This document shows positions 29,585 to 45,082 of a stretch of 45,082 nt of DNA, piece after piece (within the stretch, counting starts at the first letter, position 1; every line of letters begins with the position of its first letter). The stretch covers positions 1 through 45,082 of the forward strand of contig JAHECY010000025.1 of assembly GCA_024641505.1 (NCBI GenBank), read 5' to 3'. The position numbers and the translations under genes were made by a program. The notes below the pieces were generated by a model, which saw only the letters and a program-made list of their open reading frames with translations, had not been told where the DNA came from and did no database searches. This DNA comes from Gammaproteobacteria bacterium (lineage in GTDB: Bacteria > Pseudomonadota > Gammaproteobacteria > SG8-11).

Positions 29585-29830
29585 TCAATCAGGCTGATAA
29601 TCCCGTGGTGGCATTTGCAAGTAAAAACCCTGGGCATGAACCTGCGCCAGGACCACTGACACATCCGCTTGCGCGAGCTTTCTTTCCGGGGCCAACTCAA
29701 GGTCCATGACTTTCTCCATGGCCCCCAACAATTCCAGTAATTTTTCCGGCAAGGTTTCCGGATCTTTTTGGGCATCCAGATACAGATAATACCCCTGTTT
29801 TTTTAAACTTTTATATACAACACACTGCAT
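29585..29830 (-). CDS. ycgL: YcgL family protein (UPF0745)
   Basis: The 81-residue protein matches the YcgL domain: MQCVVYKSLKKQGYYLYLD, LPEKLLELLGAMEKVMDLEL, ERKLAQADVSVVLAQVHAQG and the end FYLQMPPRDY. The function is unknown. It is a compact single-domain protein, often encoded near rnd or minC in other species; neither is here. The ATG at 29830 matches the family start; an in-frame GTG 15 bases upstream would add five residues. No clear Shine-Dalgarno precedes either. Confidence 0.9.
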   Translation of the reverse strand: MQCVVYKSLKKQGYYLYLDAQKDPETLPEKLLELLGAMEKVMDLELAPERKLAQADVSVVLAQVHAQGFYLQMPPRDYQPD

Positions 29831-30225
29831 AGGTTTTATAGTCACATTTTGCCCATGTCACGCAAGATTTTCCCGAAAACTCCGATAACGTGGATAACTC
29901 GGGGCACCGATGAACCAACGTCGAAGTTTAGCACAAGGCGAAATCGCGGGCTGATTTCAAATGCTAATTCTCGCTACATTTGCAGCCCCACGCTATGCGC
30001 ACACCCATGCCGGCAGCACGACATTATGACGGTATATTTTTCCATGGCAGTAAGCAGCTCATACGGTTCAACGAAGATGAAAATTCACGTTCTTGGATTT
30101 GTGTTACCGGTAACTGAATGCGACAATAGCCGCCTGAAAATGCCAATGCGTGGCTCCAGATCAAACCGGTATAGAGAAGCGCCCGGGGGTAGCCATGGAA
30201 CCTGGAGAAAGATAAAGGAAAAGGT
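29831..30225. other. Intergenic region, ycgL / secreted protein gene
   Basis: Nothing coding is supported in these 395 bases; the small frames on both strands lack protein character. CGTGGATAA at 29889-29897 is a one-mismatch DnaA box. AAAGGAAAAGG just before 30226 is the ribosome binding site of the next gene. Confidence 0.4.
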
Positions 30226-30735
30226 ATGTTCTTGAGAACTGTCACGATCATGTTGCTGGGATTAGTTGTCTGCAACGCCCATGCGATCGATAAAACCGAA
30301 CTGGTGCAGCTGGAAAAAACCTATCGTGACCTTATCATTGCGATCCACAACAAGGATCTGGATAAAATCCTCTCTTATGTCCACCCTGATGGCCTGGGGG
30401 GCGCGGATACCAGTACGCCTAAGGCACAAATTGAACAGGATCTGCGCGATCCCAGCAGTTATTTAACGACCGCCCTGTTTGACAACAGCTTCGAAATGGC
30501 CGAGGAGTTGTGCGACGACCAGGGTCGTGCGCCGCTCAGCCCATATGCCTTTTATGAGAAGTTCGGGGATAAATTCAAAGTCACTACCTCGGTGCTTAAA
30601 GAAGGTGAATACTATTCCGTGGCCTCAATGGCGAAGAATGCCGATGATAAACGCGCCTGCCAATACTTCCTCTTTGGCCTGACCTTCTCCAAGACGAAAG
30701 ATGGCAAGTTTCTGTTGATCTCCAACTTCCGCTAA
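30226..30735 (+). CDS. Secreted protein of unknown function
   Basis: The 169-residue product starts with a clear signal peptide (MFLRTVTIMLLGLVVCNAHA, cleavage after AHA), so it is periplasmic or secreted. The mature part begins with a helix (ELVQLEKTYRDLIIAIHNKDLDKI) followed by mixed alpha/beta segments such as YAFYEKFGDKFKVTTSVL and YFLFGLTFSKTKDGKFLL. The layout is reminiscent of NTF2-like or SnoaL-like folds, but the match is too weak to assign. Two cysteines in the mature part (EELCDD and RACQYF) could form a disulfide. AAAGG precedes the ATG. The gene is monocistronic. Confidence 0.75.
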   Translation: MFLRTVTIMLLGLVVCNAHAIDKTELVQLEKTYRDLIIAIHNKDLDKILSYVHPDGLGGADTSTPKAQIEQDLRDPSSYLTTALFDNSFEMAEELCDDQGRAPLSPYAFYEKFGDKFKVTTSVLKEGEYYSVASMAKNADDKRACQYFLFGLTFSKTKDGKFLLISNFR

Positions 30736-30767
30736 TCAATGTAACATATTACCCGTCATACGCACTA

Positions 30768-31150
30768 ATGCAGCTGATACTCAGCGGCAATGTGCTATAC
30801 AGCGACGCGACTACCGGCACTCTCCTTACGGTGACTACGCCAGTAACGATAATTTGTATTTTCCCGTGGCACACCACGATCCGCGCTTCCATCCGAAAGA
30901 GGTCATCATCGGCGTACGCATTGGCTCCATCACCAAAGCCTATCCCTTGGTTGAACTGGCCAAAGCAGGTACTCCCGTTGTCGACCGACTCGGCACGCGC
31001 ACTCTGACCGTGGTCTATGACGCCCACGCCCATGCGGCCCGCATCCTTGACAGTCTCGGCAAAGAGTTCCCCAGTATCACAGGCTATTGGTTCGCTTGGA
31101 TGGCGTTCCACCCGCAAAGCCTGGTCTATCGTGCCCCTTCCGGTCACTAG
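30768..31150 (+). pseudogene. 5'-truncated, frameshifted remnant of a DUF3179 gene
   Basis: The frame ending at 31150 reads DYRHSPYGDYASNDNLYFPV, then AHHDPRFHPKEVIIGVRIG, KAYPLVELAKAGTPVVDRLG, LTVVYDAHAHAARI and YWFAWMAFHPQSLVYRAP, which is the C-terminal third of the DUF3179 family. The preceding family segment seems to continue in another frame from 30768 (ILSGNVLYSD), implying a frameshift near 30805. The first two thirds of a usual protein of about 300 or more residues are missing, since the upstream gene ends at 30735. The remnant has no good start or ribosome binding site. It probably marks a past deletion. Confidence 0.7.
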
Positions 31151-31398
31151 TACGCGTCCGGTGATAACCATTTTTCCCTCACTGAGACGCCAAGCGACGA
31201 CGCCGTGGAACTCAGCGCAAGAGCATGATATTACCCTGCATGCTTCGCGTCCCGGCTAAAGCTAAGGATTGGGTTTGTAACAGGATACCCAGTAGCGGCC
31301 CGTGACCTCTCGCCCACGAGGCGGTTGACGCTTACCGGTGTGATGAATACGTGATATCTTGGCGCTAATATTTCATTAAATTAGCGAGTTATACCCTG
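31151..31398. other. Leader region of the two-component operon with a small inverted repeat
   Basis: CGCTAAT at 31363-31369 and ATTAGCG at 31380-31386 form a perfect 7-bp inverted repeat ending 12 bases before the response regulator ATG. It could be an autoregulatory operator or a leader hairpin near the start codon. No Shine-Dalgarno is obvious before the ATG. Otherwise I see no gene here. Confidence 0.4.
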
Positions 31399-32106
31399 AT
31401 GTCCACGCATATTCTTATCATCGAAGACAATTTGGATCTGGCCAAATTACTGGAAATGCACCTGGCGGACCTGGGGCATCGCAGCACCCTGGTCCTGGAC
31501 GGCATCAAGGGCCTGCAGGCCGCCAGTGAAACGAAATACGATTTGGTGATCCTCGACATCATGCTGCCCGGCCTGGACGGTCTGGAAATCTGCAAGCGCA
31601 TTCGCGCCCGGGATGCCTATACCCCAATACTGATGCTGACGTCAAAATCTTCGGAACTGGATCGGGTGCTGGGTCTGGAACTGGGCGCCGATGACTACGT
31701 CACCAAGCCGTTTAGCATCAAGGAGCTGATGGCGCGTATCAAGGCAATTCTGCGGCGCGCGGAAAACCTCGGGACCGAGAAGGAGCGCAATGAGGAAATC
31801 CTAAAAATCGGCGGCTTGCACATCGATACCCAGAAACGCCTGGTGCAGATCGACGCCAAGCCCGTGGAGCTGACCGCCAAGGAATTTGATCTTCTCTATT
31901 ATTTCGCCCGGCATCCGGGGCGGGTATTCTCACGTACGCAACTACTGGATCAGGTATGGGGTTATGGCCACGACGGTTATGAACATACCGTCAACTCCCA
32001 TATCAATCGCCTGCGGGCAAAAATCGAGGCCGACCCCGCGAATCCGCGCTACGTACTGACGGTATGGGGCGTGGGCTACAAATTCAACGATGAACTGATG
32101 GGCTGA
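31399..32106 (+). CDS. OmpR/PhoB family response regulator
   Basis: The 235-residue protein has an N-terminal receiver with acidic E9 and D10, phosphoacceptor D53 (VILDIMLPGLDG), T81 and K103 (DDYVTKPF). The C-terminal winged helix (LTAKEFDLLYYFARHPGRVFSRTQLLDQVWG, then TVNSHINRLRAKIE, YVLTVWGVGYKF) is of the OmpR type. It is expected to bind DNA when phosphorylated by the sensor encoded 4 bases downstream. Target genes are unknown; the Ig-repeat genes further downstream are candidates by position only. Confidence 0.94.
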   Translation: MSTHILIIEDNLDLAKLLEMHLADLGHRSTLVLDGIKGLQAASETKYDLVILDIMLPGLDGLEICKRIRARDAYTPILMLTSKSSELDRVLGLELGADDYVTKPFSIKELMARIKAILRRAENLGTEKERNEEILKIGGLHIDTQKRLVQIDAKPVELTAKEFDLLYYFARHPGRVFSRTQLLDQVWGYGHDGYEHTVNSHINRLRAKIEADPANPRYVLTVWGVGYKFNDELMG

Positions 32107-32110
32107 TATC

Positions 32111-33592
32111 ATGCTGCGCTCCCTATACACTAAACTCGCCCTGGTGCTGCTGGCTTTGTTTCTGCTCGTGGCAATCTTCATGGTGTTCGTCACTCGTTAC
32201 GCGACCACCATGTACCAGCAGGAAGTCAACCAAAAACTCAATTTCGATGTAGCCAAACACGTCGTCGCTGATCTGGATCTGATGCGCAATAACACCATCA
32301 ACCAGGATGCCCTGAAAAACGCATTTCATCAGCTCATGGTGTTCAATCCCAGTATCGAAATCTATTTGCTCGATACCCAAGGCGAGATCCTGTCCTACTC
32401 CGCCGAACCGGGCAAGGTAAAGCGCCCGCATGTCAGCCTGGCGCCCATCAAGCGTTTCCTGGCGGCGAAGCCCCACGGTCCCTTATTGGGGGACGATCCT
32501 CGGGACCGCGCCCGTAAAAAAGTGTTTACCGTGCACCCGATCACCGACGGCGATAAACTGCAGGGCTATCTCTATGTGATTCTGGGTGGGGAAGAATACG
32601 ACAATGTCATCGACATGCTCGCCACCAGCTATATCCTGAACCTGACCACCTGGCTGATCGTCGCCGGTTCCCTGTTTTCCCTGGCGGCGGGCTTGCTGGT
32701 ATTCGCCTGGCTGACCGGACGGCTGCGTCAATTGTCCAATGCCATGGCCTTGTTCCGGCAAGGCGCTTCCCTGGAACGGCTTACCGCTCAGGTGCCGTAT
32801 CGCTCCCATCCCGGCGATGAAATCGATCAGCTCAACAATACCTTTCTTGAAATGGCAAAGCGTATCGACAGCTACATTCAGGAACTGCGTCGCGTCGACA
32901 CCTTGCGCCGTGATCTGGTGGCCAATGTGTCCCATGACTTGCGCACGCCACTGGCGACCTTGCAGGGATATGTGGAGACCTTGTTGCTGAAAAAACAACA
33001 GCTCAACGAATCGGAACAGCAGCATTACCTGCATATCGCCCTGCAACATTGTTTGCGTTTGAATAAACTGGTTCAGGAATTGTTTGAACTGGCCAAATTG
33101 GACGCCAAAGAAACCATGATCAAAACCGAACCGTTCAATCTACCGGAACTGATTCAGGATGTGGTGCAGAAATTTCACCTGCGCGCCACCGAAAAAGGCA
33201 TCGCGCTGCGCAGTCAGGTGCCGGAGAAAATGCCGTTTATCAAGGGCGATATCGCCATGATCGAACGCGTACTGGAAAATCTCATCGAAAACGCCCTGCG
33301 CCACACGCCCCAAGGCGGTAACATCGAGGTCAAGGTCCGGCCCCAGGGCAGCGTGATCGCCGTGGAACTCAGCGATACCGGTATCGGCATTCCGCAGGAG
33401 GAATTACCTTATATCTTTGACCGCTTTTACAAGGGCGACAAGAGTCGCACCCAGGAATCCGCCTCCTCGGGGCTGGGTCTGGCGATCACCAAACGCATGC
33501 TGGAGCTTCACGACAGCAATATCGAAGTCAAAAGCGACCTCAACCAAGGCACCACCTTCTCCTTCGAACTGCCGATCTATACCCCGGCGTGA
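32111..33592 (+). CDS. Sensor histidine kinase (HAMP, HisKA, HATPase)
   Basis: The 493-residue kinase has two membrane helices (about 8-30 and 178-200) flanking a periplasmic sensor of about 145 residues, a HAMP linker, the dimerisation domain with H275 in NVSHDLRTPLATLQGYVE, and the ATPase domain with N box ENLIENALRHTP, G1 DTGIGIPQEELPYIFDRFYKG and G2 GLGLAITKRMLELH. The signal sensed is unknown. It forms a two-gene operon with the response regulator (4-base gap). A stem of 7 pairs at 33635-33659 follows, without a T run. Confidence 0.94.
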   Translation: MLRSLYTKLALVLLALFLLVAIFMVFVTRYATTMYQQEVNQKLNFDVAKHVVADLDLMRNNTINQDALKNAFHQLMVFNPSIEIYLLDTQGEILSYSAEPGKVKRPHVSLAPIKRFLAAKPHGPLLGDDPRDRARKKVFTVHPITDGDKLQGYLYVILGGEEYDNVIDMLATSYILNLTTWLIVAGSLFSLAAGLLVFAWLTGRLRQLSNAMALFRQGASLERLTAQVPYRSHPGDEIDQLNNTFLEMAKRIDSYIQELRRVDTLRRDLVANVSHDLRTPLATLQGYVETLLLKKQQLNESEQQHYLHIALQHCLRLNKLVQELFELAKLDAKETMIKTEPFNLPELIQDVVQKFHLRATEKGIALRSQVPEKMPFIKGDIAMIERVLENLIENALRHTPQGGNIEVKVRPQGSVIAVELSDTGIGIPQEELPYIFDRFYKGDKSRTQESASSGLGLAITKRMLELHDSNIEVKSDLNQGTTFSFELPIYTPA

Positions 33593-34028
33593 GGCCGGAG
33601 CACGCACCTTCCGTCGTGGAATCGATGGTGATTACGCAACGTGTGCCGACACCGTTGCGCTAACCGGTGGCCAGGTATACCACGGTGCCTCCGCTTCGCC
33701 CGCAGCTTTAGACGGGCTCCAAACATGCTCACACTGGCCACCCCCTATTTCAATCATTAAAAGTGCGTAAGTTAACCGCGGTCTGTCCGAGACTGTGCGG
33801 ATTTCCGCGCACTCACCATCAAGAGTAACCTCCCCCTTAAGATTTGGTTATTCACAACCGCCGCATCAGATACATTCTGGTTGATTATCTTTTTCTGGCC
33901 TATAATTTTCACCGTTACCATTGCGATACTGGAAAACTTAAATAAAAATAGCAGATATCACACCACTATTTTAAATCCGAACCAGACCACACACGGAAGT
34001 TTCGACTCGATACACAGGGAGGAAGATC
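33593..34028. other. Intergenic region before the Ig-repeat genes
   Basis: No gene is supported in these 436 bases. CGCAACG at 33635-33641 pairs with CGTTGCG at 33653-33659, a possible weak end of the kinase operon. The second half is AT-rich and likely promoter territory for the Ig-repeat genes; AGGGAGGAAG before 34029 is a strong ribosome binding site. Confidence 0.4.
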
Positions 34029-36392
34029 ATGCGGTATTTGGCAGTTGGGGGATTGATCATGATGACGGTTGCCTGCAGCAACGCGCTCGATAAACTGGCG
34101 TCGGCTATCCCGTCGGGCACGGCGTCCGGCCTCGCCTACGACAGTTTGATCGTCAATGGCGAAGTTGCCGTCTATTCCTTTAGCGGCGACACCGGACGCT
34201 TACTGGGTGAGGGTGTCACCGATGCCGCCGGCTATTACACCATCGCGTTATTCAACGCGGACCAACCGGTAATCATCGAGGTCACCGGTGGCCAGTACCT
34301 GGAAGAAGCCAGCGGCAGTACCGTGCCCTTGCAGGCGGGACAGAAACTGCGGGCGGTAAGCAACTACATCGCCGGCCAGACCATCACCGTTCATGCCACC
34401 TACTGGACCACGGTCGCCGCCGGCCTGGCGGAATATAAATTGAGGACCGGCGCTGCGCCAATGCAGGCGGTGACCGCGGCCAATGCAGAAATCAGCGCCT
34501 TGCTCGGCTTGGACATCACCACGACCACGCCGGTGAATCCTACCGACATTCTCGGACGTAACTTCTACCTCGGTCCCGGCCTCGAATACGGTTTTTTCGC
34601 CGCGGGGTTGTCAGCGTGGACTGCGATGGCAAGTACGATTAACCAATCCAGGATTCATGAAAAATTTTCATCAATCGCCTTTGCCCAATTAGCCTATGAC
34701 GATATCCGCCACGATGGCATGCTCGACGGTCAGGGGGAATCGGGTGCTTTGGCCTTTGGCAGCATCGCCCTGTCACCGGAGATATACCGCCATGCTCTGG
34801 CGGTGAGCGTGTTGCAGATGGCGCATTCCACGCGCAACGTCAGCGGCATCATTCCGGAACGGCTGCTGCAAACCGCCAGACGCTTAAACGATTCCGAGGC
34901 TGCCGTGTTCGGTGACGCGGCAACCACCCCGATCGATGAGACCGGCCCCATGTTAACGGTGCTGCGCCCCGAAGATGCAGTCACGGTATTCGGCAAATTC
35001 CCGGCCAGCGCCGACGTCACCGACATCGTGGGCGTCGCGTCCGTGGAATTTCTGGTCGATAGCGTTTCCCTGGGGATGGCAACCGATAGCGGCGCGCCGG
35101 CCATGGTCATAGACAGTACCAAGCTGACGGACGGCAGGCATGTTCTGAGTTTTCGCGCCACCAACTTTGCCGGTTCCAGCAAAGTGGCGAACCGGGCCAT
35201 TCTTGTTGCCAACCGGTCCACCGTGATTGCGGATGTCCGACCCGGCGACCGAAGCCTGGTGCGAGGCACGATCACGGCGGCGGCAACGGTCACCGACGCC
35301 GCCGGATTGACACACGTCGATTTCAGTGTCGACGGGCAACATCTCGGCACGGCGGACGATGTAACCGCACCGCAAATGAGTTTCGACAGCAACAACTATG
35401 ACGACGGCGACCATACCCTGCGCATCGCCGCAACCAATACCGTGGATTATCAACTGACCACGGACATCATTATGACTGTCGATAATACACCGCCGATCGT
35501 CGGCAATCTGACGCCGTTGGCGGATGCTTTTCTTGCCGGCACGTTTAGCGCCGCGGCGGTGGTGACCGATGCCCATTTGACGGCGGTTGAATATTTTCTC
35601 GACGGCGTTTCGCTGGGTTTTGCGGCCGATCTCTCCCAGGCAAACCTGGACATCAATTCCACTCTGGTTACCGACGGTCCGTACACGCTGGGGATCAAGG
35701 GTGAAGACGGCGCCGGCAATGTGACACTGGCAACCCATCCGATACACATCGATAACACACCCCCGGTGATCAGCAATGTGCTGCCCAATCCCGGTACCTG
35801 GACCACTTACAGTCTGGAGGTGCGGGCCGCGGTTACCGATTTGTCACCTGTGACCCTGCGGTTCTCGGCCGAAAACGGCGTTACCCTTTATAATGTGGTG
35901 ACCAGCAGCAATCCCAATGTCATCACCGGCACCGCCGGTCTGCAAAATGACGGTGAACATACCATCAGCATCGTGGCCACCGATGCACCGGGCAACACCA
36001 GCACCCACAGCGTGACGGTGATGCTCGATGCCACTCCCCCGAGCACCAGCGCCACTCTCGTCCCCAACCTGGACCCGCCTACCTGCGCCACCTGTCAGTC
36101 GCTGGTGCGAAGCTGCACCGTCAACGGCATTTCCACCGATCAAGGCGTTGGGCTGGCGGCGGTGTATATCGATGGTTCGTTGGTCGCCAGTGATCCTATT
36201 GTCGCCTGGTCGTTTACCTCACCTCGGCCGACGTCAACCAATAACACGCCGTTACCGGCATGTGATAACCCGGTAATCTCCCCTTCGAACACACAGGCAG
36301 CCAGCGACAAACTGGGTAACACCGCATGGCGCACCCTGGTCTGGTGCACCGCGCCCAGTATCGGCGTGACCTGTGAATTGCGAACGCATTGA
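34029..36392 (+). CDS. Putative lipoprotein with bacterial Ig-like repeats (paralogue 1)
   Basis: The 787-residue protein has a short hydrophobic leader ending in a lipobox-like TVAC (C16). A first domain of about 300 residues (VAVYSFSGDTGRLLGEGVTD, then YWTTVAAGLAEYKL, and YDDIRHDGMLDGQGESGALA) is shared with the next gene. Then come at least four Ig-like repeats of about 85-95 residues with the pattern VxFxVDxxSLG ... DGxHxLxxxATN ... VDNTPPxVxNLxP. The last 110 residues contain seven cysteines, unlike the repeats. AGGGAGGAAG precedes the ATG. It is probably exposed at the cell surface or outer membrane; adhesion or binding is inferred. No enzyme motif is seen. Confidence 0.8.
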   Translation: MRYLAVGGLIMMTVACSNALDKLASAIPSGTASGLAYDSLIVNGEVAVYSFSGDTGRLLGEGVTDAAGYYTIALFNADQPVIIEVTGGQYLEEASGSTVPLQAGQKLRAVSNYIAGQTITVHATYWTTVAAGLAEYKLRTGAAPMQAVTAANAEISALLGLDITTTTPVNPTDILGRNFYLGPGLEYGFFAAGLSAWTAMASTINQSRIHEKFSSIAFAQLAYDDIRHDGMLDGQGESGALAFGSIALSPEIYRHALAVSVLQMAHSTRNVSGIIPERLLQTARRLNDSEAAVFGDAATTPIDETGPMLTVLRPEDAVTVFGKFPASADVTDIVGVASVEFLVDSVSLGMATDSGAPAMVIDSTKLTDGRHVLSFRATNFAGSSKVANRAILVANRSTVIADVRPGDRSLVRGTITAAATVTDAAGLTHVDFSVDGQHLGTADDVTAPQMSFDSNNYDDGDHTLRIAATNTVDYQLTTDIIMTVDNTPPIVGNLTPLADAFLAGTFSAAAVVTDAHLTAVEYFLDGVSLGFAADLSQANLDINSTLVTDGPYTLGIKGEDGAGNVTLATHPIHIDNTPPVISNVLPNPGTWTTYSLEVRAAVTDLSPVTLRFSAENGVTLYNVVTSSNPNVITGTAGLQNDGEHTISIVATDAPGNTSTHSVTVMLDATPPSTSATLVPNLDPPTCATCQSLVRSCTVNGISTDQGVGLAAVYIDGSLVASDPIVAWSFTSPRPTSTNNTPLPACDNPVISPSNTQAASDKLGNTAWRTLVWCTAPSIGVTCELRTH

Positions 36393-36405
36393 CGGACCCA
36401 CCGTG

Positions 36406-38415
36406 ATGCAGGCGTTATTACCGATCATCATTCTCATTACCCTGACGGTGGGCTGCGGAACGCAGAGCGGAGAACACGCGGCCGCGACGGCGGCACCCGG
36501 CGGCAATGTGTCCGGGGTGATCGATCTTGGCCCATCGCGCAACGCCAGCCTCAGGGTATTCCGGTTTACCGGCGCCGAGGGCGAGGGCGAGTTACTCGCC
36601 ATCGGTCACAGTGACGCCCAGGGCAGATACAGCATCAATCTGTACACGCCCTCGGGACCGATCATGGTCGAGGCCGGGGAAGGCAGCTATATCGAAGAGG
36701 TCGATGGCGCCAATGTCGCCATGCCGCGCGATCAACCGCTGTTTGCCGTAATCAACTATATGGAAGGCACCAACAATACAGCGCACCTGACCCACTGGAC
36801 GACACTGGCCACCGCGCTGGCGCATTACTTGTCCCGTACCGGCAGCACCGCCTCCCAGGCCCTGCAGGAGGCTAACCGTGAAATTGACGCCATCGTTGGC
36901 CTGCCCGTCGTCACCTCCAGGCCGGAGAGTCCGGGATTCACCAATGGCGCCACCGGCACCACCCTCTCCACCGAGAAGACCCATGGTTTGCTGGTGGCTG
37001 CCGTTTCACAACTGACAACGACGTTGAATTCCGGGCGCAGCGATCCCGGGCAGCTCGTTTCTTCCCTGGCGTTCACCCGTTACGCCTATGACGATCTGCA
37101 ATTCGATGGGGTGCTGAATGGCAGGGGTTCATCGACAACAATACTTCCGGACGGCATTACCGTTTCCACGGACCTGTACCGTCATGGACTCGCGGTGAGT
37201 CTGCTCAAGTATGCGCAAAGTAATGCCAATCATTCCGGAATCGATGCCGCGATGCTGGTGACCCTGGCATTGCGGCTGAACAACTCCGGCTCCCCGATTT
37301 ATGGCAATGCGACCCTCATAGCCCTCGATGAGAACGGACCGGTGATCACGCAACTGTCACCCGCAGCGGACACCACCATCTATGGACAATACCGGTGCGC
37401 GGTAACGGTTAACGATGTCATCGGGCTGGCATCCGTGGATTTTCTAGTGGATGAATCGTATGCGGGAAGCGCCGCGAATCCCTCCGCCGCTACTTTTACC
37501 CTCGATGCCGACAGCTATGCGGAGGGCCCGCATACGCTGACCGCGCGCGCCACCAATCTGGTGGGAACGACGGTTCAGGTAACCCACGGTATTGTAATTA
37601 CCAGCAGCGCCACGGCCTTGAGTATCACCCAACCGGCGCCGGATAGTTTTCTGGGCGGCAGCGTTACCGTCAGCACGGTCGCATCGGGCGTGCCCCCGCT
37701 GCGCTCGGTCGAATTATATGTCGATAATACGCGGGTCGCCGGCACCGCGGGTAACGCCACCGCGCAATTCACTTTCGACAGTACGCGCTTTCCCGACGGC
37801 CGGCACCGTTTGTGGGTCACCGGCACCAATGCCGCCGACCGAACATTTAGCGCGGAAATTCCCATGACCCTGGACAATACCGCCCCGGAACTCACCGCCA
37901 CCGCGCCTGCGCCGGGCTCCTATCACGGGGGCATGCTCACCGTCAGCGCCACGGCATCCGATGTCAATTTGGACCGAATTCTGTTTGGCATCGACGATCT
38001 GCCACCCCGACCCGCGGGCGATGTCGCCAACGCCGCCCGGGTCATCGACACCGCGACTTTCAACGACGGCGCCCACCGCATCGCCGTTGAGGTGGTCGAT
38101 AAGGCGGGAAACTCCCGCAACGGACAATTTTCCCTGTATTTCGATAACACCGCCCCACGCATCAGCAACATCTTTCCGCCGGACGGCACCGTGGTGGGTA
38201 CCGAACAATTCACGGTAATGGCAACCATCGAGGAATTGTCGTTGGCTAGTGTAGAATTTTGGCTTGACGGGAATTTTTATATCAATGGTGGGTTACAAGC
38301 ACAAACCTTTATTGTCGGCAGCCGTCTCTCTCCGGGCACGCACATCATCACCGTCCTGGCCACCGACAGCGTCGGTAATTTCAGCGCTCGGGATTCCAGC
38401 GTCGTACGCCGATAG
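36406..38415 (+). CDS. Putative lipoprotein with bacterial Ig-like repeats (paralogue 2)
   Basis: The 669-residue protein starts MQALLPIIILITLTVGCG, with a lipobox-like C17, and shares the whole layout of the preceding gene: the same N-terminal domain (LRVFRFTGAEGEGELLAIGHSD, THWTTLATALAHYLSRTG, YDDLQFDGVLNGRGS) and about four Ig-like repeats (VDFLVDESYAGSA, VELYVDNTRVAGTA, LDNTAPELTATAPAPGSYHGG). It lacks the cysteine-rich C-terminal part and ends in a repeat. The ATG at 36406 fits the signal sequence; earlier GTG starts would add a hydrophilic leader. It is 13 bases after the first gene, so the two form an operon of tandem duplicates that have diverged strongly. Confidence 0.8.
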   Translation: MQALLPIIILITLTVGCGTQSGEHAAATAAPGGNVSGVIDLGPSRNASLRVFRFTGAEGEGELLAIGHSDAQGRYSINLYTPSGPIMVEAGEGSYIEEVDGANVAMPRDQPLFAVINYMEGTNNTAHLTHWTTLATALAHYLSRTGSTASQALQEANREIDAIVGLPVVTSRPESPGFTNGATGTTLSTEKTHGLLVAAVSQLTTTLNSGRSDPGQLVSSLAFTRYAYDDLQFDGVLNGRGSSTTILPDGITVSTDLYRHGLAVSLLKYAQSNANHSGIDAAMLVTLALRLNNSGSPIYGNATLIALDENGPVITQLSPAADTTIYGQYRCAVTVNDVIGLASVDFLVDESYAGSAANPSAATFTLDADSYAEGPHTLTARATNLVGTTVQVTHGIVITSSATALSITQPAPDSFLGGSVTVSTVASGVPPLRSVELYVDNTRVAGTAGNATAQFTFDSTRFPDGRHRLWVTGTNAADRTFSAEIPMTLDNTAPELTATAPAPGSYHGGMLTVSATASDVNLDRILFGIDDLPPRPAGDVANAARVIDTATFNDGAHRIAVEVVDKAGNSRNGQFSLYFDNTAPRISNIFPPDGTVVGTEQFTVMATIEELSLASVEFWLDGNFYINGGLQAQTFIVGSRLSPGTHIITVLATDSVGNFSARDSSVVRR

Positions 38416-39010
38416 ACAGTGACCCGCATGTTTTTCTGTTACGCGGGAAAAATCGGATTTTGCCTGTATCCGCACACCTATTGCGTACAAATCCGCTTAC
38501 GGCGAAACGCCACCCACCACGCAAACACCCCGCCAGTCCCGCGAAATATCATCACAATGCCAACGCGTACCATTGCCTTCACGCAGGGTCAATGCCCATT
38601 GCCCTGCCAGTGCCATGGAACGACGCCGTTGAGTCAGTATCCGGTTTTCGTTGCCCGGTCCTTGACTCCGGAAACTGCCGCGTTCCTAGAGGTCATTTAG
38701 CGGGCGAAACCGCTGTTTGACGGCTCTGTTTCCCGGTTGCAATGCCGCTATCGTGATGATGCTCAGTTACGCCGCGGACTGGCGCGTGCTTTCTTTCTCA
38801 ATCGGCGTCACGCCAAAACCTGCAGGCAAAATATCGCGCATACGATCCAATGGCACACCCCGCGCTTCTGAAAGTACCGCAAATCGTGTCAGGGGACGGC
38901 CCAGGTCCCGAGCAGCCGCATGGACACGGGCAAAATGCCGTGATTTTTGCTACTATTACCAATGATGCATATCGAAATACACAAATTTCACAATAATGGA
39001 GAACCATCCA
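38416..39010. other. Gene-poor stretch with protein-like remnants
   Basis: No intact gene is supported in these 595 bases. On the minus strand two start-less open frames look like real protein pieces: 38767-38949 (below), and one between about 38510 and 38695 that reads ILTQRRRSMALAGQWALTLR. This suggests decayed genes. The ribosome binding site GGAG at 38998-39001 belongs to the next gene. Confidence 0.45.
38767..38949 (-). pseudogene. Start-less open frame, possible gene remnant
   Basis: The minus-strand frame is bounded by TAG at 38950-38952 and TAA at 38767-38769 and reads SRHFARVHAAARDLGRPLTR, FAVLSEARGVPLDRMRDILP and AGFGVTPIEKESTRQSAA. The residue pattern is convincingly protein-like, but no start codon opens it and I do not recognise the family. 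It may be the end of a deleted gene. Confidence 0.3.
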
Positions 39011-39511
39011 ATGGCTGCAAAGAAGAAAACCGTATCCCTGGTAAAAAGCGCTATCGCGCATAAAACCATCGAACAATCAATTGCCAATGTAGCGTCTGTG
39101 ACCGGCCACTTGAACAAGGCGGTGGATACCACCAGCAAGACCGCGAAGCAACTGGCCACGGAAAGCAAACGGCTGGGCAAGAAACGGGGCTCATTGCTGA
39201 AAAAGAAAAAGATTGCAAGCAATAAAGTAAAGAAGGAAGGTGGCGCCGCACACAAAAAAGCGTTGCGTGATATCGAGAAAGAGCTGGTAGGCGTCAAAAA
39301 GTCGGTGGCCAAGACCTCCTCGGAAAAATCCGCCATCAATGAAGAACTGACGGAATTGAAGAAATTGCAGAAAAGGGCCAGCGCTTATATTAAAGCGATT
39401 ACCGGCATTGAAAAGGCTCTGAACAAACCGGCCAAAAAAAGGCGCAAAAAAATGTCGGCGAAAAGTAAAGCTAAGGCCGCAGCCACAAGTCAACCCCAGG
39501 TGGCGGCCTAG
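39011..39511 (+). CDS. Lysine/alanine-rich, coiled-coil, histone-H1-like protein
   Basis: The 166-residue protein is extremely basic, with Lys and Ala dominating. The N-terminus MAAKKKTVSLVKSAIAHKTI leads into a helical, coiled-coil-prone middle (NKAVDTTSKTAKQLATESKRL, LRDIEKELVGVKKSVAKTSS, INEELTELKKLQKRASAYI) and a C-terminal tail NKPAKKRRKKMSAKSKAKAAA resembling histone-H1 tails. No signal or membrane segment is present. A nucleoid- or RNA-binding role is inferred from composition only. GGAG is well placed before the ATG at 39011. It stands alone and shares a terminator with the convergent cytochrome gene. Confidence 0.75.
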   Translation: MAAKKKTVSLVKSAIAHKTIEQSIANVASVTGHLNKAVDTTSKTAKQLATESKRLGKKRGSLLKKKKIASNKVKKEGGAAHKKALRDIEKELVGVKKSVAKTSSEKSAINEELTELKKLQKRASAYIKAITGIEKALNKPAKKRRKKMSAKSKAKAAATSQPQVAA

Positions 39512-39516
39512 TACCA

Positions 39517-39551
39517 AAACGCTCACCCACGGTGTTACTGGGTGAGCGTTT
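39517..39551. terminator. Bidirectional terminator between convergent genes
   Basis: AAACGCTCACCCA at 39517-39529 and its perfect complement at 39539-39551 form a 13-bp stem with a 9-base loop. It is placed 6 bases after the histone-like gene and 12 after the end of the cytochrome gene. Short T runs follow on the plus strand and on the minus strand (complement of AAAA at 39516-39519), so it can act both ways. Confidence 0.8.
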
Positions 39552-39562
39552 CCGTTCAACAA

Positions 39563-40636
39563 TTACCAAGCCACACTCGAGACCCGATGACAGCCAGACC
39601 GCCCGCAGTCCTGATTGATGGCAACCGGCTGGTTCTTGTGCGCTATGGCTGACTGTATATAGGTTGCTGCATGACAGCCTGCGCAGCTGGGGGCAAAGCT
39701 TGGTGCCGTATAGGCAACCGCTGTACTGTTGTTGAGATGACACGTGGCGCATGGCATATAAAGCCGATGATTCCCAGGGTAATTGCTGGTCTGATGTACA
39801 TAAGTGACCGATAACCAAGCCGCAGTTATATGGCAGGCATTACAGTCCTGCGCAACAACAAAGTGACCTGGCGGCTTGCCGGAAGCGTTAGTTCCGTTGT
39901 GACATGTACCACAGAGGCCGGTAACACCGGTGTGGTCCATTCGTGCCGGCAACCACGCGGTCGTGACATGGCAAAGCAAGCACTGTTCAGATGTAGGTAT
40001 ATGCGTGGGTCCTTTTCCGGTTGCGCCAATGCCATCATGGCAACCGTTTTGAGCGCACGACATGGAAAACTGCGTGTGATCCAGTACCACCGCATCGGTT
40101 GTGGCAGTGACCGGGTCACTCGGGCGGCTTTCACCCGCGTCGTTGGTTGCTGTTACCACGTAGTAATAGGTTACGTTGGGTGTCACATTGCCATCGAGGT
40201 AAAAGGTAGTTTCCGTATCCGCGACCTTATTGGCCGCAGTCGGCGCCACGTCGGGTTGCAGAGCGCGGTAAACAGAATAGAGATTCGTCCCCACACCTTG
40301 CCCCCATTGCAGCAAGACGTGATATTGAGAACCCAGAGCGCTAACAGCCGCTGGTCGGTCGGGCATCAAGCCTTGCGCCGTTTCCTGGATTTCTACTGTT
40401 ATGACATCGCCGGCATTCACCACAAGCCCCGCCTGTTCGCAATTCCATTCTCCATTCATGGTGGGTACAACAGTGACTCTTTTATTTAATGTTACGTTTC
40501 TACATCTTATTCTACTAATAGATTGAAATCCCGAAAGACTGCCGCTCACCGGTGCGGCTTGAAGGTCTGTGGTAGCGACCAAGCATAGGACCAACATTGG
40601 GACTATGGTTGCAATCCGTTGAAATCGTTTAGACAT
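39563..40636 (-). CDS. Secreted multiheme cytochrome c with fibronectin type III domain
   Basis: The 357-residue product has a signal peptide (to about residue 28, ending LQAAPV), a beta-rich region, an FN3 domain at about 96-182 (VLLQWGQGVGTNLYSVYRAL, YYYVVTATNDAGESRPSDPV) and a C-terminal multiheme part. Five CXXCH sites start at C219, C242, C265, C296 and C318, and two CX4CH sites start at C194 (CAQNGCH) and C344 (CGRSGCH), so up to seven c-type hemes. Similar proteins carry electrons across the periplasm or at the outer surface. AGGAG lies 8 bases before the ATG. The ECF sigma and anti-sigma genes are directly upstream on the same strand. Confidence 0.88.
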   Translation of the reverse strand: MSKRFQRIATIVPMLVLCLVATTDLQAAPVSGSLSGFQSISRIRCRNVTLNKRVTVVPTMNGEWNCEQAGLVVNAGDVITVEIQETAQGLMPDRPAAVSALGSQYHVLLQWGQGVGTNLYSVYRALQPDVAPTAANKVADTETTFYLDGNVTPNVTYYYVVTATNDAGESRPSDPVTATTDAVVLDHTQFSMSCAQNGCHDGIGATGKGPTHIPTSEQCLLCHVTTAWLPARMDHTGVTGLCGTCHNGTNASGKPPGHFVVAQDCNACHITAAWLSVTYVHQTSNYPGNHRLYMPCATCHLNNSTAVAYTAPSFAPSCAGCHAATYIQSAIAHKNQPVAINQDCGRSGCHRVSSVAW

Positions 40637-40698
40637 TTTTTTTCTCCTGGATATTCATCAATAATTAACCTCTAGAGGAGGCGCAGCACTACGGAAGT

Positions 40699-40725
40699 AA
40701 TACGAAGCGCAAAGAAAAATATTCC
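40699..40725 (-). promoter_or_regulatory. Candidate ECF-sigma promoter of the cytochrome gene
   Basis: On the minus strand GGAAT (40725-40721) is separated by 16 bases from CGTATT (40704-40699). A GGAA-type -35 with a CGT-containing -10 is the usual form of ECF promoters. It would place the start about 55 bases before the cytochrome ATG. The same pair was not found before the sigma gene. Confidence 0.35.
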
Positions 40726-40810
40726 TTCCGATGGAAAATTTGCTGCAGAGAAAAAAATATATCTAGAGGTGAAAAATGTATCCTTGGTCAATCTAACAAT
40801 ACCATGCACA

Positions 40811-41635
40811 CTATTTATGCATTAGCTTGGCGGTAAACTGAGCGATGGATTCTAAATGGGTGTTATCGGGAGGACCGATTAAAAAGTAGAGCAATTTCTC
40901 GCCCTGCCACGTACAGATGGGTCCTTGTGGATAGTCCAATTTGCATTGTGGTGCGAGATACCTGTGACTACCTTCGTTCAGCCGTATATAAAGCGTAAGC
41001 CGCCGATCTTGAGCATCGCCATACATATACAACGCGGCATGTTTTCCGGCCGACGGCAGCAATCTACCGCCAATGAATGTATAGCCGACGCTTTCAAGTT
41101 CTGGTGGTCCGATCTCGGCAGACAGGCGTTCGGATAACCATTTCATCATATGTTCCTTGTCGCTCGCTGGCACCTCCACGGCATGCCGCTTTTCACGCGC
41201 ATAAATCAGATGCGCGTCCAGGGCCAGCGACTCGATCTGTGCGTAGAAACCCGGCGCGTGCGGCACCATACCGACGAATTTCAAGGATATGAAGAAGCTT
41301 AATGACAGACTCAGGAAAGTGATGACGGCATAAATCGCCACATGGGGCATATCAAAGTATTTTTTGGCGTTACACCAGGCACCCACCTTTTTAACGAGCG
41401 AGGGATCGGGATAAGAATTTACCGCACGCACGAGCCGGTCGGACACAGGCACCCGCAGTCGATCACCAAAAGTCATACGCAAGTCCATATTCAGCTTCTC
41501 GAACTGCTCGATCTCAACCTGAGCCTCGGGCTGAGATGCCAGCCATGCAGCATATTTCTTGCGCGTTTGTTCATCAAGCCGCCGATCAACATAGGCGTTC
41601 AGCAAGGCGTCAAGTTTTTGCTCTTGATCGCTCAT
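40811..41635 (-). CDS. Membrane anti-sigma factor
   Basis: The 274-residue protein has a cytoplasmic N-terminal helical part (residues 1-97: LDALLNAYVDRRLDEQTRKKY, AAWLASQPEAQVEIEQFEKLN) resembling the anti-sigma fold, one membrane helix at about 98-120 (YAVITFLSLSLSFFISLKFVG) and a periplasmic domain of about 150 residues. The zinc-binding HxxxCxxC motif of many anti-sigma factors is absent. It should hold the ECF sigma factor inactive until a periplasmic signal releases it. Its start overlaps the sigma stop in ATGA. The periplasmic domain has two cysteines (QCKLDYP and ICTWQ) that could sense redox state; this is a guess. Confidence 0.85.
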   Translation of the reverse strand: MSDQEQKLDALLNAYVDRRLDEQTRKKYAAWLASQPEAQVEIEQFEKLNMDLRMTFGDRLRVPVSDRLVRAVNSYPDPSLVKKVGAWCNAKKYFDMPHVAIYAVITFLSLSLSFFISLKFVGMVPHAPGFYAQIESLALDAHLIYAREKRHAVEVPASDKEHMMKWLSERLSAEIGPPELESVGYTFIGGRLLPSAGKHAALYMYGDAQDRRLTLYIRLNEGSHRYLAPQCKLDYPQGPICTWQGEKLLYFLIGPPDNTHLESIAQFTAKLMHK

Positions 41636-42141
41636 ATACCGGACTTCTCTGTCGTTACGGGAGACTCAGGATTCATACGAAGACTGAGTTGTTTGCGAGC
41701 GCGATGTAACCGTGACATAACCGTACCCACCGGAACATCGATGATATTGCTGATCTCCTTGTAGCCCAGCCCTTCGAGCGAAACCATCAACAATATTTCT
41801 CTTTGCTCAGGCGCTAATTCCGCAAGCTGACGGCACAAATCCCGTATCGCCAACAAATCCGACTGACTTGGCGCAATGGCACGGAGGATTTCATCCGCGT
41901 CCACATTGACAATAGGGGAACCGCTGCGCCGGCGGTGATCATCCACGAAGGCGTTATGTAAAATGGTAAACAACCAGGGTTTCATCGCCCTGCTGTGATC
42001 CCACTGATCGCTCTTGTGGAGCGCACGTTCCAGGCAATCCTGAACCAGATCTTCCGCACTACTATAATTTCCCAACAACGCAATCGCGTAGCGCATAAGG
42101 CCGGGAATATGCTCTACCAGTAGTTGTTTAAATTCTTGCAT
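41632..42141 (-). CDS. ECF-type RNA polymerase sigma factor
   Basis: The 169-residue protein has region 2 (LLGNYSSAEDLVQDCLERAL, RAMKPWLFTILHNAFVDDHRR) and region 4 (LAPEQREILLMVSLEGLGYKEISNIIDVPVGTVMSRLHRARKQL) joined by a short linker, the minimal ECF layout. It directs RNA polymerase to stress or envelope genes, probably including the adjacent cytochrome. It overlaps the anti-sigma gene by 4 bases, a standard regulatory pair. No matching ECF promoter was seen just upstream, so self-activation is not shown. Confidence 0.95.
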   Translation of the reverse strand: MQEFKQLLVEHIPGLMRYAIALLGNYSSAEDLVQDCLERALHKSDQWDHSRAMKPWLFTILHNAFVDDHRRRSGSPIVNVDADEILRAIAPSQSDLLAIRDLCRQLAELAPEQREILLMVSLEGLGYKEISNIIDVPVGTVMSRLHRARKQLSLRMNPESPVTTEKSGI

Positions 42142-42552
42142 TGAAGGGCTGGTATATCACTGTCGGGGGGTCGAATGTGAACAGTATTGTCGATATCAGA
42201 TTTATGGATCACCGATGCATGCGTCATGGACGCGAGATGTTTCCATGTGGCCACAATATTTCCGAAAACAACGTATCATAACAGATATATACCCCCGGTT
42301 GCACGAATCGCACATTAGCACTTTCCCCGCTAACATCAAGCAACCGTTTTTTACCAGACCTTCCCGTTTTGGCACGCGAGTTCCGCTGCGCCATAACGAG
42401 CAAATTTTATTGCATCCACACCGCGGAATCGTCACAATCGATGCTGTTTAAGATGAATTGACTCACGAAGTATTGGAATGGTGCAGACCTGCTGGTTGCG
42501 CCGCGGGTAATCAAGAGTTTGCGTTGATACCAACGGATGGGCCACATGGACC
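42142..42552. other. Intergenic region between the sigma gene and the cre locus
   Basis: These 411 bases separate divergent genes. Short frames on both strands (about 42202-42451) overlap one another and have no protein character, so I call no gene. Promoters for the sigma operon and creBC should lie here; none is convincing by eye. Confidence 0.4.
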
Positions 42553-42687
42553 ATGAGTCGCTACAACTATTCGGCATCGGCGGGAGACTTGGAATATACC
42601 AGCCAGTCGCAGTTCATGGAGCACGTCACACAGGTCTGTGACGCCACCCCGGACGACCAATCCCGGTTGTCAAGGACTCCGCTATGA
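42553..42687 (+). CDS. Possible 44-codon ORF coupled to creB
   Basis: An ATG at 42553 opens a frame of 44 codons (MSRYNYSASAGDLEYTSQSQ..., ending SRLSRTPL) whose TGA overlaps the creB ATG as ATGA. This exact overlap suggests translational coupling, but the peptide has no recognised motif and no clear Shine-Dalgarno precedes it. It may be a leader peptide or chance. Confidence 0.3.
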   Translation: MSRYNYSASAGDLEYTSQSQFMEHVTQVCDATPDDQSRLSRTPL

Positions 42688-43400
42688 CGAGAATTTTATT
42701 AGTTGAAGACGAGGCTGCAATAGCCGACACGGTGGTGTACGCACTGGAGGCCGACGGCTTTGCGGTGCAGTGGCACCGGTTGGGCCAGGAGGCGTTGGCG
42801 TATCTTCAAAAGGCCGGTGATGTGGCGCTGGTGATTTTGGATGTGGGTTTACCCGACGCTAGTGGTTTTGAGATATGTAAGGCGATTCGGCGTTTTTCCG
42901 AGGTACCGATCATTTTTCTTACCGCTCGGGGAGAGGAATTAGACCGAATCATCGGCCTGGAAATCGGTGGTGATGATTATGTAACCAAACCCTTCAGTCC
43001 ACGCGAACTGGTATCGCGGGTCAGGGCAATTTTAAGGCGGATTCGGGAACCTGTCGTGCAAGTATCGGAAACAATGTCCGCTGGCACGACAACTACAGTT
43101 TTTGACTTTACCGTGGATGAGCAACGGGCCACTATTACATTACATGGCCATCTCCTGGATCTCACACGCTACGAATACCTGATTCTGCAGTACCTGTTGA
43201 GCCAACCGGAACGGGTTTTCACGCGGGATCAAATCATGAATACGGTATGGACCCAACCGGAAACCAGCCTTGACCGGGCGGTAGATACGCACATCAAGTC
43301 CTTGCGCAGCAAACTGCGCAAGGTGCAGCCAAGTCGAGAGTATATCAAGACCCATCGCGGCCTTGGATACAGCATAGGCAACGCTTTTCATGAGCCTTAG
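42684..43400 (+). CDS. creB: Response regulator CreB
   Basis: The 238-residue OmpR-type regulator has acidic E8 and D9, phosphoacceptor D53 (VILDVGLPDASGFE), T80 and K102, then a winged helix (LTRYEYLILQYLLSQPERVFTRDQIMNTVW, RAVDTHIKSLRSKLRK, YIKTHRGLGYSI). The spacing and the neighbouring kinase identify it as CreB. In E. coli CreBC responds to growth in minimal media and penicillin-binding-protein inhibition, and activates creD. Its last 11 bases overlap creC. creA is not adjacent. Confidence 0.92.
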   Translation: MTRILLVEDEAAIADTVVYALEADGFAVQWHRLGQEALAYLQKAGDVALVILDVGLPDASGFEICKAIRRFSEVPIIFLTARGEELDRIIGLEIGGDDYVTKPFSPRELVSRVRAILRRIREPVVQVSETMSAGTTTTVFDFTVDEQRATITLHGHLLDLTRYEYLILQYLLSQPERVFTRDQIMNTVWTQPETSLDRAVDTHIKSLRSKLRKVQPSREYIKTHRGLGYSIGNAFHEP

Positions 43401-44832
43401 CCTGCGGCTTTTTATCGCCTATTTTTTGCTTATGGGATTGTCCATCTGGTTTATTCTGCAAGCAGTTACCACGGAGCTGATTCCGGGCATGCGCCAGTCC
43501 CTGGAAGAGGTTTTGGTGGATACGGCGAATCTGTTGGCGGAAATCGTGGAACAGGAAGTTTCCGCCGACACGCTCAACACGGGACGATTCAGCTCCAGCA
43601 TGATGGCATTCCACAACCGGCGCCTGGAGGCACGTATATATTCCCTGCAAAGAACCAGCAGCAATCTGGAAGTTTATATCACCGATGCCAACGGCATCGT
43701 AGTCTATGATTCGACCGGCAGGCATGTGGGCGCGGATTACTCTCAATGGAACGATGTGTATCTTACCCTGAGCGGGAAATACGGCGCTCGGACCACGCGC
43801 ACCGATCCCTTGGACGACACCAGTAGCGTGATGCATGTGGCAGCGCCGATCAAGGCGCAGCAAAAAATCATCGGGGTTCTCACCGTGGCCAAACCGAGCG
43901 CCAGCGTGCAACCGTTCTTCGAGCAATCCGTGCGGACAATTAAATATAATATTTGGTTGCTATTGACCGTGTCATTTGGTCTATTGATCCTCATTGTCTA
44001 CTGGCTCACCTTGTCCATCCGTAAATTAACCCGGTACGCGCAGGCTGTGCGCATGGGAAAACGAGTCGCCGTACCCCGCCTGCGTGAGAAGGAACTGGCG
44101 CAATTGGCTGTAGCGATGGACGAAATGCGTGATGCCCTGGAAGGTAAGGACTATGTCGAAAACTACCTGCACGCCCTCACCCATGAACTGAAAAGCCCGC
44201 TGGCGGCGATTCAGGGCGCAGCGGAACTGCTGGATGGCGACATGCCTGAACAGTCACGGTTGCGGTTTGTCAATAATATCGCCAATGAAGCACAGCGCTT
44301 GCGGCAGATCGTCGAAAAACTGCTACAGCTGGCGGAACTGGAAAAAAGGCAGAAATTGACCACTGTCGTGCCGGTGGCTACGGCACCGTTGATCCAACAA
44401 CTGTGCGACGACAAAAGCCCGTTGCAGCAACAGCGCCAAGTGGTACTGCGCATCACCGCGCTGACAAATGCGAAAATCGAAGCGGAGCGCTTTCTGGTGC
44501 AACAGGCAATCAGTAACCTGCTGGACAATGCCCTGGCCTTCAGTTTACCCAAGGGGGTGATTACGGTCAGCGATGCCGTGGATGAGCAGCATTGGCACCT
44601 GACCATACGTGACCACGGACCCGGAATACCAGATTATGCGCTGAGTCGCGTGTTTGAACGATTTTATTCTCTGCCCCGGCCGGACACTGGCAACAAAAGC
44701 ACCGGCTTGGGTTTGAGTCTAGTACAAGAGGTCGCCCAGTTACACGGTGGCACTATCCAGCTATCAAACCATCCCCAAGGGGGAGCTGAAGCGCATTTCT
44801 GCTTGCCACTACGGCAAAATCCCGGTGTCTGA
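43390..44832 (+). CDS. creC: Sensor histidine kinase CreC
   Basis: The 480-residue kinase closely follows E. coli CreC in order: LRLFIAYFLLMGLSIWFIL (first membrane helix), a periplasmic domain with VYITDANGIVVYDSTGRHVG, DYSQWNDVYLTLSGKYGAR and SSVMHVAAPI, a second membrane helix, the H265 box ALTHELKSPLAAIQGAAELL, N box LLDNALAF, and GPGIPDYALSRVFERFYSLPRP with GLGLSLVQEVAQLHGG. It senses cell-wall or metabolic stress and phosphorylates CreB. The gene overlaps creB, and creD follows after 132 bases. Confidence 0.94.
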   Translation: MSLSLRLFIAYFLLMGLSIWFILQAVTTELIPGMRQSLEEVLVDTANLLAEIVEQEVSADTLNTGRFSSSMMAFHNRRLEARIYSLQRTSSNLEVYITDANGIVVYDSTGRHVGADYSQWNDVYLTLSGKYGARTTRTDPLDDTSSVMHVAAPIKAQQKIIGVLTVAKPSASVQPFFEQSVRTIKYNIWLLLTVSFGLLILIVYWLTLSIRKLTRYAQAVRMGKRVAVPRLREKELAQLAVAMDEMRDALEGKDYVENYLHALTHELKSPLAAIQGAAELLDGDMPEQSRLRFVNNIANEAQRLRQIVEKLLQLAELEKRQKLTTVVPVATAPLIQQLCDDKSPLQQQRQVVLRITALTNAKIEAERFLVQQAISNLLDNALAFSLPKGVITVSDAVDEQHWHLTIRDHGPGIPDYALSRVFERFYSLPRPDTGNKSTGLGLSLVQEVAQLHGGTIQLSNHPQGGAEAHFCLPLRQNPGV

Positions 44833-44964
44833 GCGTTCCCCGGCGAGCGCCGAAGCCAGTTTCAGTTAAATATCTTAAACAACACACAAAGCACACCCAA
44901 TCCACATCCAGCCCCCACAGGCATGCCCTAGGCTGTCCTCATATTTCACAGGTGAGGAAAAACG

Positions 44965-45082
44965 ATGAACAGACAATTTACGATCAAGATCGGCGTAATC
45001 CTGCTATTGGCGATTATGTTAATGATTCCCCTGTCCATGATCGAAGACGTGGTCATGGAACGCAGCACTTATCGCGACCAGG
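44965..45082 (+). CDS. creD: CreD inner-membrane protein (N-terminal part, cut by window edge)
   Basis: The frame opens at ATG 44965 after GTGAGGAAAA and runs off the edge, giving 39 residues: IKIGVILLLAIMLMIPLSMI (membrane helix), then EDVVMERSTYRDQ. This matches the start of CreD (cell envelope integrity protein), where a helix is followed by VxxR.xYR. The position behind creBC supports it. One CreB half-site TTCAC occurs at 44945-44949; the second TTCAC expected after 6 bases is missing. Confidence 0.85.
   Translation, partial: MNRQFTIKIGVILLLAIMLMIPLSMIEDVVMERSTYRDQ

Follow-up and report, generated by a model that had tools for sequence, protein, structure and literature searches.

Three genes in a 45,082-nucleotide stretch of gammaproteobacterial DNA, analysed here as a whole and called the window, raise the question of whether an ECF sigma/anti-sigma pair governs an electron carrier outside the cytoplasm. 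An ECF sigma factor, an anti-sigma factor and a secreted FN3-like multiheme cytochrome are encoded in that order on the minus strand (Table 1), the single-strand row that a preliminary description of this DNA had reported. The end of the sigma gene and the start of the anti-sigma gene share 4 bases (ATGA), and 174 nt separate the anti-sigma stop from the start of the cytochrome gene. Elsewhere in the window, two response regulator/histidine kinase pairs are present on the plus strand (42684-44832 and 31399-33592), the first of them divergent from the sigma operon with ~540 bp between. Positions 34029-36392 and 36373-38415 (+) hold tandem, overlapping genes for two paralogous proteins that resemble lipoproteins and carry Big_7/Big_13 Ig-like repeats, and a 171-aa lysine/alanine-rich protein, for which no family match exceeded the cut-off, is encoded convergently with the cytochrome (38996-39511, +).

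Table 1. Features of the sigma factor/anti-sigma factor/cytochrome locus, in window positions
Feature	Position	Strand	Basis
ECF26-type sigma factor, 169 aa	41632..42141	-	Pfam Sigma70_r2 (2.3e-14) and Sigma70_r4_2 (6.9e-17)
EcfR (ECF26)-type membrane anti-sigma factor, 274 aa	40811..41635	-	32% identity to EcfR1; ATGA overlap; family alignment
Anti-sigma cysteine pair C231...C241, periplasmic	40913..40945	-	Conserved exclusively among the three cassette anti-sigma factors
Predicted ECF26 promoter of the cytochrome, GGAATA-N15-CGT	40702..40725	-	Perfect match to the published pattern
Secreted cytochrome, 357 aa, seven c-heme sites	39563..40636	-	Sequence reading, Pfam, heme-site count
Cytochrome heme domain, residues about 185-350, 5 CXXCH and 2 CX4CH	39587..40084	-	Heme-site count; repeat as in giant cytochromes

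Judged by similarity to characterised members, the pair is of the ECF26 type. It was filed there because the sigma factor resembles RpoE1 of Sinorhizobium meliloti (36% identity, E = 3e-35) and the anti-sigma factor resembles EcfR1 (32% identity, E = 5e-26); RpoE1, RpoE3, RpoE4 and RpoE6 of S. meliloti are ECF26 sigma factors (PMC3511301). The further marks of the class are likewise present, with regions 2 and 4 as the only sigma domains, as in the ECF type (Pfam), a COG5662/EcfR-type anti-sigma gene adjacent downstream, and a GGAATA/GT promoter element. The anti-sigma factor itself matched no family in Pfam or NCBIfam, and a PDB profile search with its family returned nothing significant (best E = 0.22; the known anti-sigma factor CnrY at 0.72). 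Its matches in public plasmids are annotated 'anti-sigma factor' and adjoin sigma genes, and its N-terminal part, membrane helix and C-terminal domain all align with the family. Sequence reading predicts a cytosolic N-terminal part, one membrane helix (~97-119) and a periplasmic C-terminal domain, with cysteines at residue 88, just before the helix, and at 231 and 241 behind it. The protein contains neither HxxxCxxC nor any cysteine ahead of residue 88 and so falls outside the ZAS group, in agreement with the earlier account of an overlapping membrane anti-sigma factor without the zinc motif.

Among the loci compared, L130 contains the published 39-base SMc01418-rpoE1-ecfR1 promoter, identical in every letter, and was therefore taken as the RpoE1-EcfR1 locus (PMC6180224). 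The record concerned, CP090106.1, is labelled S. meliloti pSymB (3.72 Mb), yet it carries this promoter. In Rm1021 the rpoE1-ecfR1 promoter is chromosomal (SMc genes); the label of CP090106.1 may be wrong, or the replicon may be a fusion. A second ECF26-type pair is encoded in the window's genome (G000, contig C143, locus L026) and in its sister genome (G001, contig C177, locus L028); its anti-sigma factor has no cysteines, and it adjoins DUF1501, DUF1800 and transglutaminase-like proteins in an arrangement conserved between the two genomes.

Evidence for control of the cytochrome comes from the intergenic gap. The published ECF26 pattern has GGAATA at -35 and GT at -10, and the listed S. meliloti targets mostly conform to GGAATA-N15/16-CGT (PMC6180224), the form that was fixed ahead of our search. 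The window contains a single minus-strand match (40725-40702), which lies between the anti-sigma and cytochrome genes with its -35 element starting 89 nt before the cytochrome start codon. Perfect matches occupy the same place in all three loci with this gene order (the window, L027 and L029), and their spacers are wholly unlike (TTTTTCTTTGCGCTT, AAGCCGGCCGCCCCGG, TTCCGCCCGCCTCCTG), so that the motif is conspicuous within sequence that has otherwise diverged. Going by the pattern's frequency in the genome, a match would be expected in 0.0009-0.0015 of gaps of this size; the product of the three expectations is 1.4e-9, a figure that assumes an independence absent in related loci. Compared with other loci, the three cassette gaps gave a Fisher p of about 4e-4, a match just behind the anti-sigma gene being found in 2 of ~50 other anti-sigma loci (L109, L126). 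The leader, which runs from the predicted promoter to the start codon of the cytochrome, holds a palindrome, CCTCTAGAGG, at window 40668-40682 (-).

Upstream of the pair the pattern is less uniform, with no perfect match ahead of the window's own sigma gene and one ahead of the sigma gene in each of L027 and L029. Autoregulatory promoters before ECF26 sigma operons are common but not universal, rpoE3 being without one (PMC6180224). Genome-wide, GGAATA-N15/16-CGT is mildly enriched (85 matches vs 59 for the reversed pattern), and on these counts a wider regulon drawn from perfect matches was dropped. None of the other multiheme cytochromes listed among the genome's matches to the window cytochrome has a perfect copy of the pattern in promoter position, and sigma-70-type promoters and terminators in the region occurred at chance level. 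The second ECF26-type pair, on contig C143, could be an alternative reader of the gap promoter.

Recurrence of the arrangement was followed in five genomes of the window's order, all from one family. Window-type anti-sigma factors are present in three of these, representing two genera, and each is preceded by a sigma gene and followed on the same strand by an FN3 multiheme cytochrome with 5-6 CXXCH. A scan of the genome contigs with a single sequence gave no relative; a three-row alignment retrieved three loci of Ruegeria along with both cassette contigs. L027, identical to DKAS01000124 of Proteobacteria bacterium UBA6920 and from the same genus as the window, encodes a 643-aa lipoprotein with an FN3 domain, three Big_2 domains and six CXXCH, which starts 99 nt past the anti-sigma stop. 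L029 (JACQEQ010000262), from a groundwater MAG of a genus other than the window's, encodes an FN3/Big_2/six-CXXCH cytochrome (L029:932-2715, -) with a frame broken near the start, the lipobox and FN3 start lying in one frame and the Big_2 and heme part in another, as a result of misassembly or of a genuine frameshift. The L027 and L029 cytochromes are 46% identical orthologues (residues 131-635) with three Big_2 domains. No full-length counterpart of theirs was found in the window genome, and the window cytochrome was rejected as their orthologue on that ground. The cytochromes thus differ by descent, and what the slot keeps is therefore an FN3 multiheme cytochrome, not one fixed gene.

Phylogenetic analysis placed the three cassette anti-sigma factors in one clade (support 100/99), in which the window protein is the outlier despite L027 sharing the window's genus. 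The three sigma factors group without firm support (51/38), and long branches lead to the window pair. These sigma values come from the tree obtained after removal of long branches; the first sigma tree had placed the window sigma with a long-branch row, a grouping that vanished on their removal and was rejected. Since the three loci share ancestry, co-occurrence counts among them are not independent. Read from motif and gene order, sigma control of the cytochrome is a well-supported prediction, and the recurrent order and the ECF26 promoter in 3/3 gaps support the earlier proposal that envelope signalling may control an extracytoplasmic electron carrier.

The cytochrome itself comprises a signal peptide (cleavage at about residue 27/28, by sequence reading), a unique N-terminal domain, an FN3-like domain and a heme domain, with CX4CH sites at 194 and 344 and CXXCH sites at 219, 242, 265, 296 and 318. 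These positions confirm exactly the five CXXCH and two CX4CH counted in the preliminary description, and the secreted cytochrome with an FN3 domain that it described stands in the form of an FN3-like domain (fn3 E = 0.0013, below the Pfam cut-off). Cytochrome_C7 scored above the cut-off and Cytochrom_c3_2 just below it. Given seven sites, the Cytochrome_C7 match and predicted export, the protein is probably a multiheme c-type cytochrome (class III/c7-like), presumably heme-loaded. Its heme domain found 194 matches in G000, where heme repeats are far above chance, and the window, L027 and L029 cytochromes all use the heme repeat of the giant cytochromes of that genome. Giant repeat-type multiheme cytochromes are abundant in G000, including those on contigs C131 (a 3306-aa open frame), C216 (2074 and 1469 aa), C45, C125, C84, C53, C52 and others, and they resemble PCC3 conduits in style (PMC5566968). 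Compared by description, PCC3 cytochromes (He et al. 2017, PMC5566968) share heme-dense repeats with the window protein (about 22-39 residues per heme, and about 24 in the window), but they carry tens of hemes and accompany a large porin and an inner-membrane protein, whereas the window cytochrome combines an FN3 domain with 7 hemes and adjoins a sigma pair. No large porin/cytochrome cluster occurs among the neighbours in window 29,000-45,082.

A single copy of the cytochrome's N-terminal and FN3 part is present in the window genome, and G001, the sister genome, has one as well (L051, 54%). This one-to-one orthologue has a divergent, unrelated gene upstream, with neither a sigma pair nor an ECF26 motif on that side, and its contig ends 205 bp downstream. 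A comparison of homologue neighbourhoods, which the preliminary description had proposed as a check, was consequently mixed: the orthologue lacks an upstream pair, and other FN3 multiheme cytochromes fill the slot elsewhere. Plasmids searched with the cytochrome gave no match, and a mobile or plasmid origin was rejected. The cytochrome might simply have landed downstream of an unrelated sigma pair that does not control it, as its orthologue is not beside such a pair on the readable side, a genome rich in multiheme cytochromes makes such neighbours likelier than usual, and a 174-nt gap intervenes. The same order in all three family loci and a perfect ECF26 promoter in each gap, at an expectation of about 0.001 per gap, speak against a chance neighbourhood, which we regard as very improbable.

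The C-terminal cysteines distinguish the cassette anti-sigma factors further. Our survey covered ~44 full-length class relatives with a GGRLLP-type element and 30 phylum relatives, about 70 of the ECF26 type, and only the three cassette proteins carried two C-terminal cysteines (segments QCKLDYPQGPICTW, DCHAQGDLGVCVW and QCETRAALNVCVW), the others having F/Y/W or similar residues there. None of the other sampled ECF26-type relatives had a neighbour with at least three CXXCH directly downstream on the same strand; at L116, genes with at least three CXXCH lie 2 kb away. Cysteine pair and multiheme neighbour coincide in one clade and therefore represent one event, not three. Two C-terminal cysteines also occur in the remote anti-sigma factors of L122, L126 and L127 and in one in L109, and those of L122 are spaced like the window's, with no heme neighbour. 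The L122 protein (L122:5648-7639, -), 664 aa long and anti-sigma-like, carries a long acidic insert rich in repeats in addition to its C-terminal cysteine pair. An AlphaFold model of the window anti-sigma factor (5 sequences) had a mean pLDDT of 47, with the cysteine region below 50. Redox sensing through C231 and C241, suggested earlier for the two periplasmic cysteines, is plausible from this distribution, and a thiol-disulfide change at these residues is the most specific hypothesis for the signal, with sulfite as the best precedent.

The same distribution invites a reading in which the cytochrome is an input too: the anti-sigma cysteines would be set by the redox state of the cytochrome or of a partner, giving a feedback loop that gauges electron flow across the envelope. 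Cysteine pair and multiheme cytochrome do occur together in 3/3 loci and neither at the ~70 sampled ECF26-type relatives, and an ECF pair is often regulated with the help of genes transcribed together with it, a precedent stated for SMc01418 (PMC3511301). However, the loci number three and are related, the anti-sigma model is of low pLDDT, a cysteine pair of similar spacing occurs at L122 away from any heme gene, and the different cytochromes in the slot fit an output at least as well, so that we hold the loop to be doubtful.

Comparison with characterised systems bears on both the output and the signal. In S. meliloti, RpoE4 drives an adjoining sulfite dehydrogenase/cytochrome c/pseudoazurin operon, sorT-sorU(cytochrome c)-azu2 (PMC3511301, PMC6180224). 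The window locus shares with RpoE1-EcfR1 and RpoE4-EcfR4 an overlapping sigma/membrane anti-sigma operon, homologous proteins and a GGAATA/GT promoter, and, like RpoE4-EcfR4, its predicted target is periplasmic redox gene(s) directly downstream. It departs from these systems in its target, a multiheme FN3 cytochrome instead of a sulfite dehydrogenase operon, in the C-terminal cysteine pair, which EcfR1 lacks, and in the absence of a perfect autoregulatory promoter. Metabolism that generates sulfite elicits a response from RpoE1 and RpoE4, which activate genes for periplasmic redox proteins (PMC3511301, PMC6527743), and the signal here might similarly be sulfite or another reactive small molecule, the cytochrome serving oxidation or detoxification and the cysteines being structural. 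In addition to these closest studied relatives, a Massilia plasmid locus (L131), with a related pair near a sulfite oxidase and a cytochrome c, is consistent with this signal, but none of the genes flanking the pair in the window, in L027 or in L029 was recognised as encoding a sulfite-oxidizing enzyme, and we consider this signal unlikely.

Cytochrome P460 provides a second comparison, its gene adjoining an ECF26-type pair in 15 sampled loci, mostly directly upstream of the sigma gene. Loci of this kind include L032 (Pfam PF16694, E = 9.5e-38), L035, L040, L100, L101, L105, L110, L111, L114, L117, L118 and L121, and in L118 and L121 an ECF26 motif lies about 67 nt ahead of the P460 gene. These loci likewise couple the same sigma/anti-sigma type to a secreted heme protein, but one with a single heme, another fold and a mostly upstream position, and their pairs lack the cysteines. 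Because of the P460 loci and the sorT-cytochrome c operon, secreted heme or electron-carrier proteins appear as a recurring ECF26 partner. Our literature search found no paper on an ECF26-type pair with cytochrome P460 and none in which a multiheme cytochrome is linked to an ECF sigma/anti-sigma pair. Koga and colleagues reportedly tied an ECF sigma factor of Shewanella to c-type cytochrome maturation and extracellular electron transfer in 2020 (cited in PMC8314016).

The preliminary description had known of no standard precedent for such a cassette, a view that does not hold for the general arrangement, as ECF26 pairs drive sorT, cytochrome c and azurin genes (PMC3511301, PMC6180224) and often adjoin P460. 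Since known pairs drive sulfite dehydrogenase/cytochrome c operons and many adjoin P460, the coupling principle is not new. What is new is the FN3 multiheme cytochrome after the pair in 3/3 loci, the gap promoter retained in 3/3 though the window's cytochrome is not orthologous to the other two, and the cysteine pair. The locus is the same switch as in known ECF26 systems, with a new output and extra cysteines.

Overall, we favour, with a probability of roughly 0.7, an ECF26-type switch with the adjacent secreted multiheme cytochrome as its main local output. The membrane anti-sigma factor would keep the sigma factor in the cytosol, presumably by binding it, until its periplasmic domain senses an envelope signal and releases it. 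Freed sigma factor would then fire the GGAATA-N15-CGT promoter in the gap, and the resulting cytochrome would be exported, loaded with heme and serve as an electron carrier in the periplasm or at the cell surface. More tentatively, a redox-dependent disulfide between C231 and C241 may form part of the signal. We count in favour of the switch the homology to RpoE1/EcfR1, the recurrent order, a gap promoter kept despite different cytochromes and the RpoE4 precedent, and against it L051 without pair or motif, the lack of a promoter before the window sigma gene and the 51/38 sigma tree. As a wider and somewhat unlikely extension, an ECF26 subclass might use a redox-sensing cysteine pair to adjust an exchangeable multiheme conduit under a conserved promoter, which would amount to a one-component redox thermostat for extracellular electron transfer.

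Little is understood of how bacteria match their multiheme conduits to redox conditions beyond the inner membrane, and this small cassette predicts one promoter and two cysteines for which a heterologous host suffices, culture of the source organism being unneeded. Because an ECF26 promoter match precedes the cytochrome gene in three related bacteria, the window's among them, an envelope signal, possibly redox in nature, probably makes these cells switch on the electron carrier. Ultimately, the repeated attachment of ECF26 pairs to secreted heme proteins, whether P460, the sulfite dehydrogenase cytochrome or a multiheme cytochrome, suggests a common theme in a poorly characterised group.
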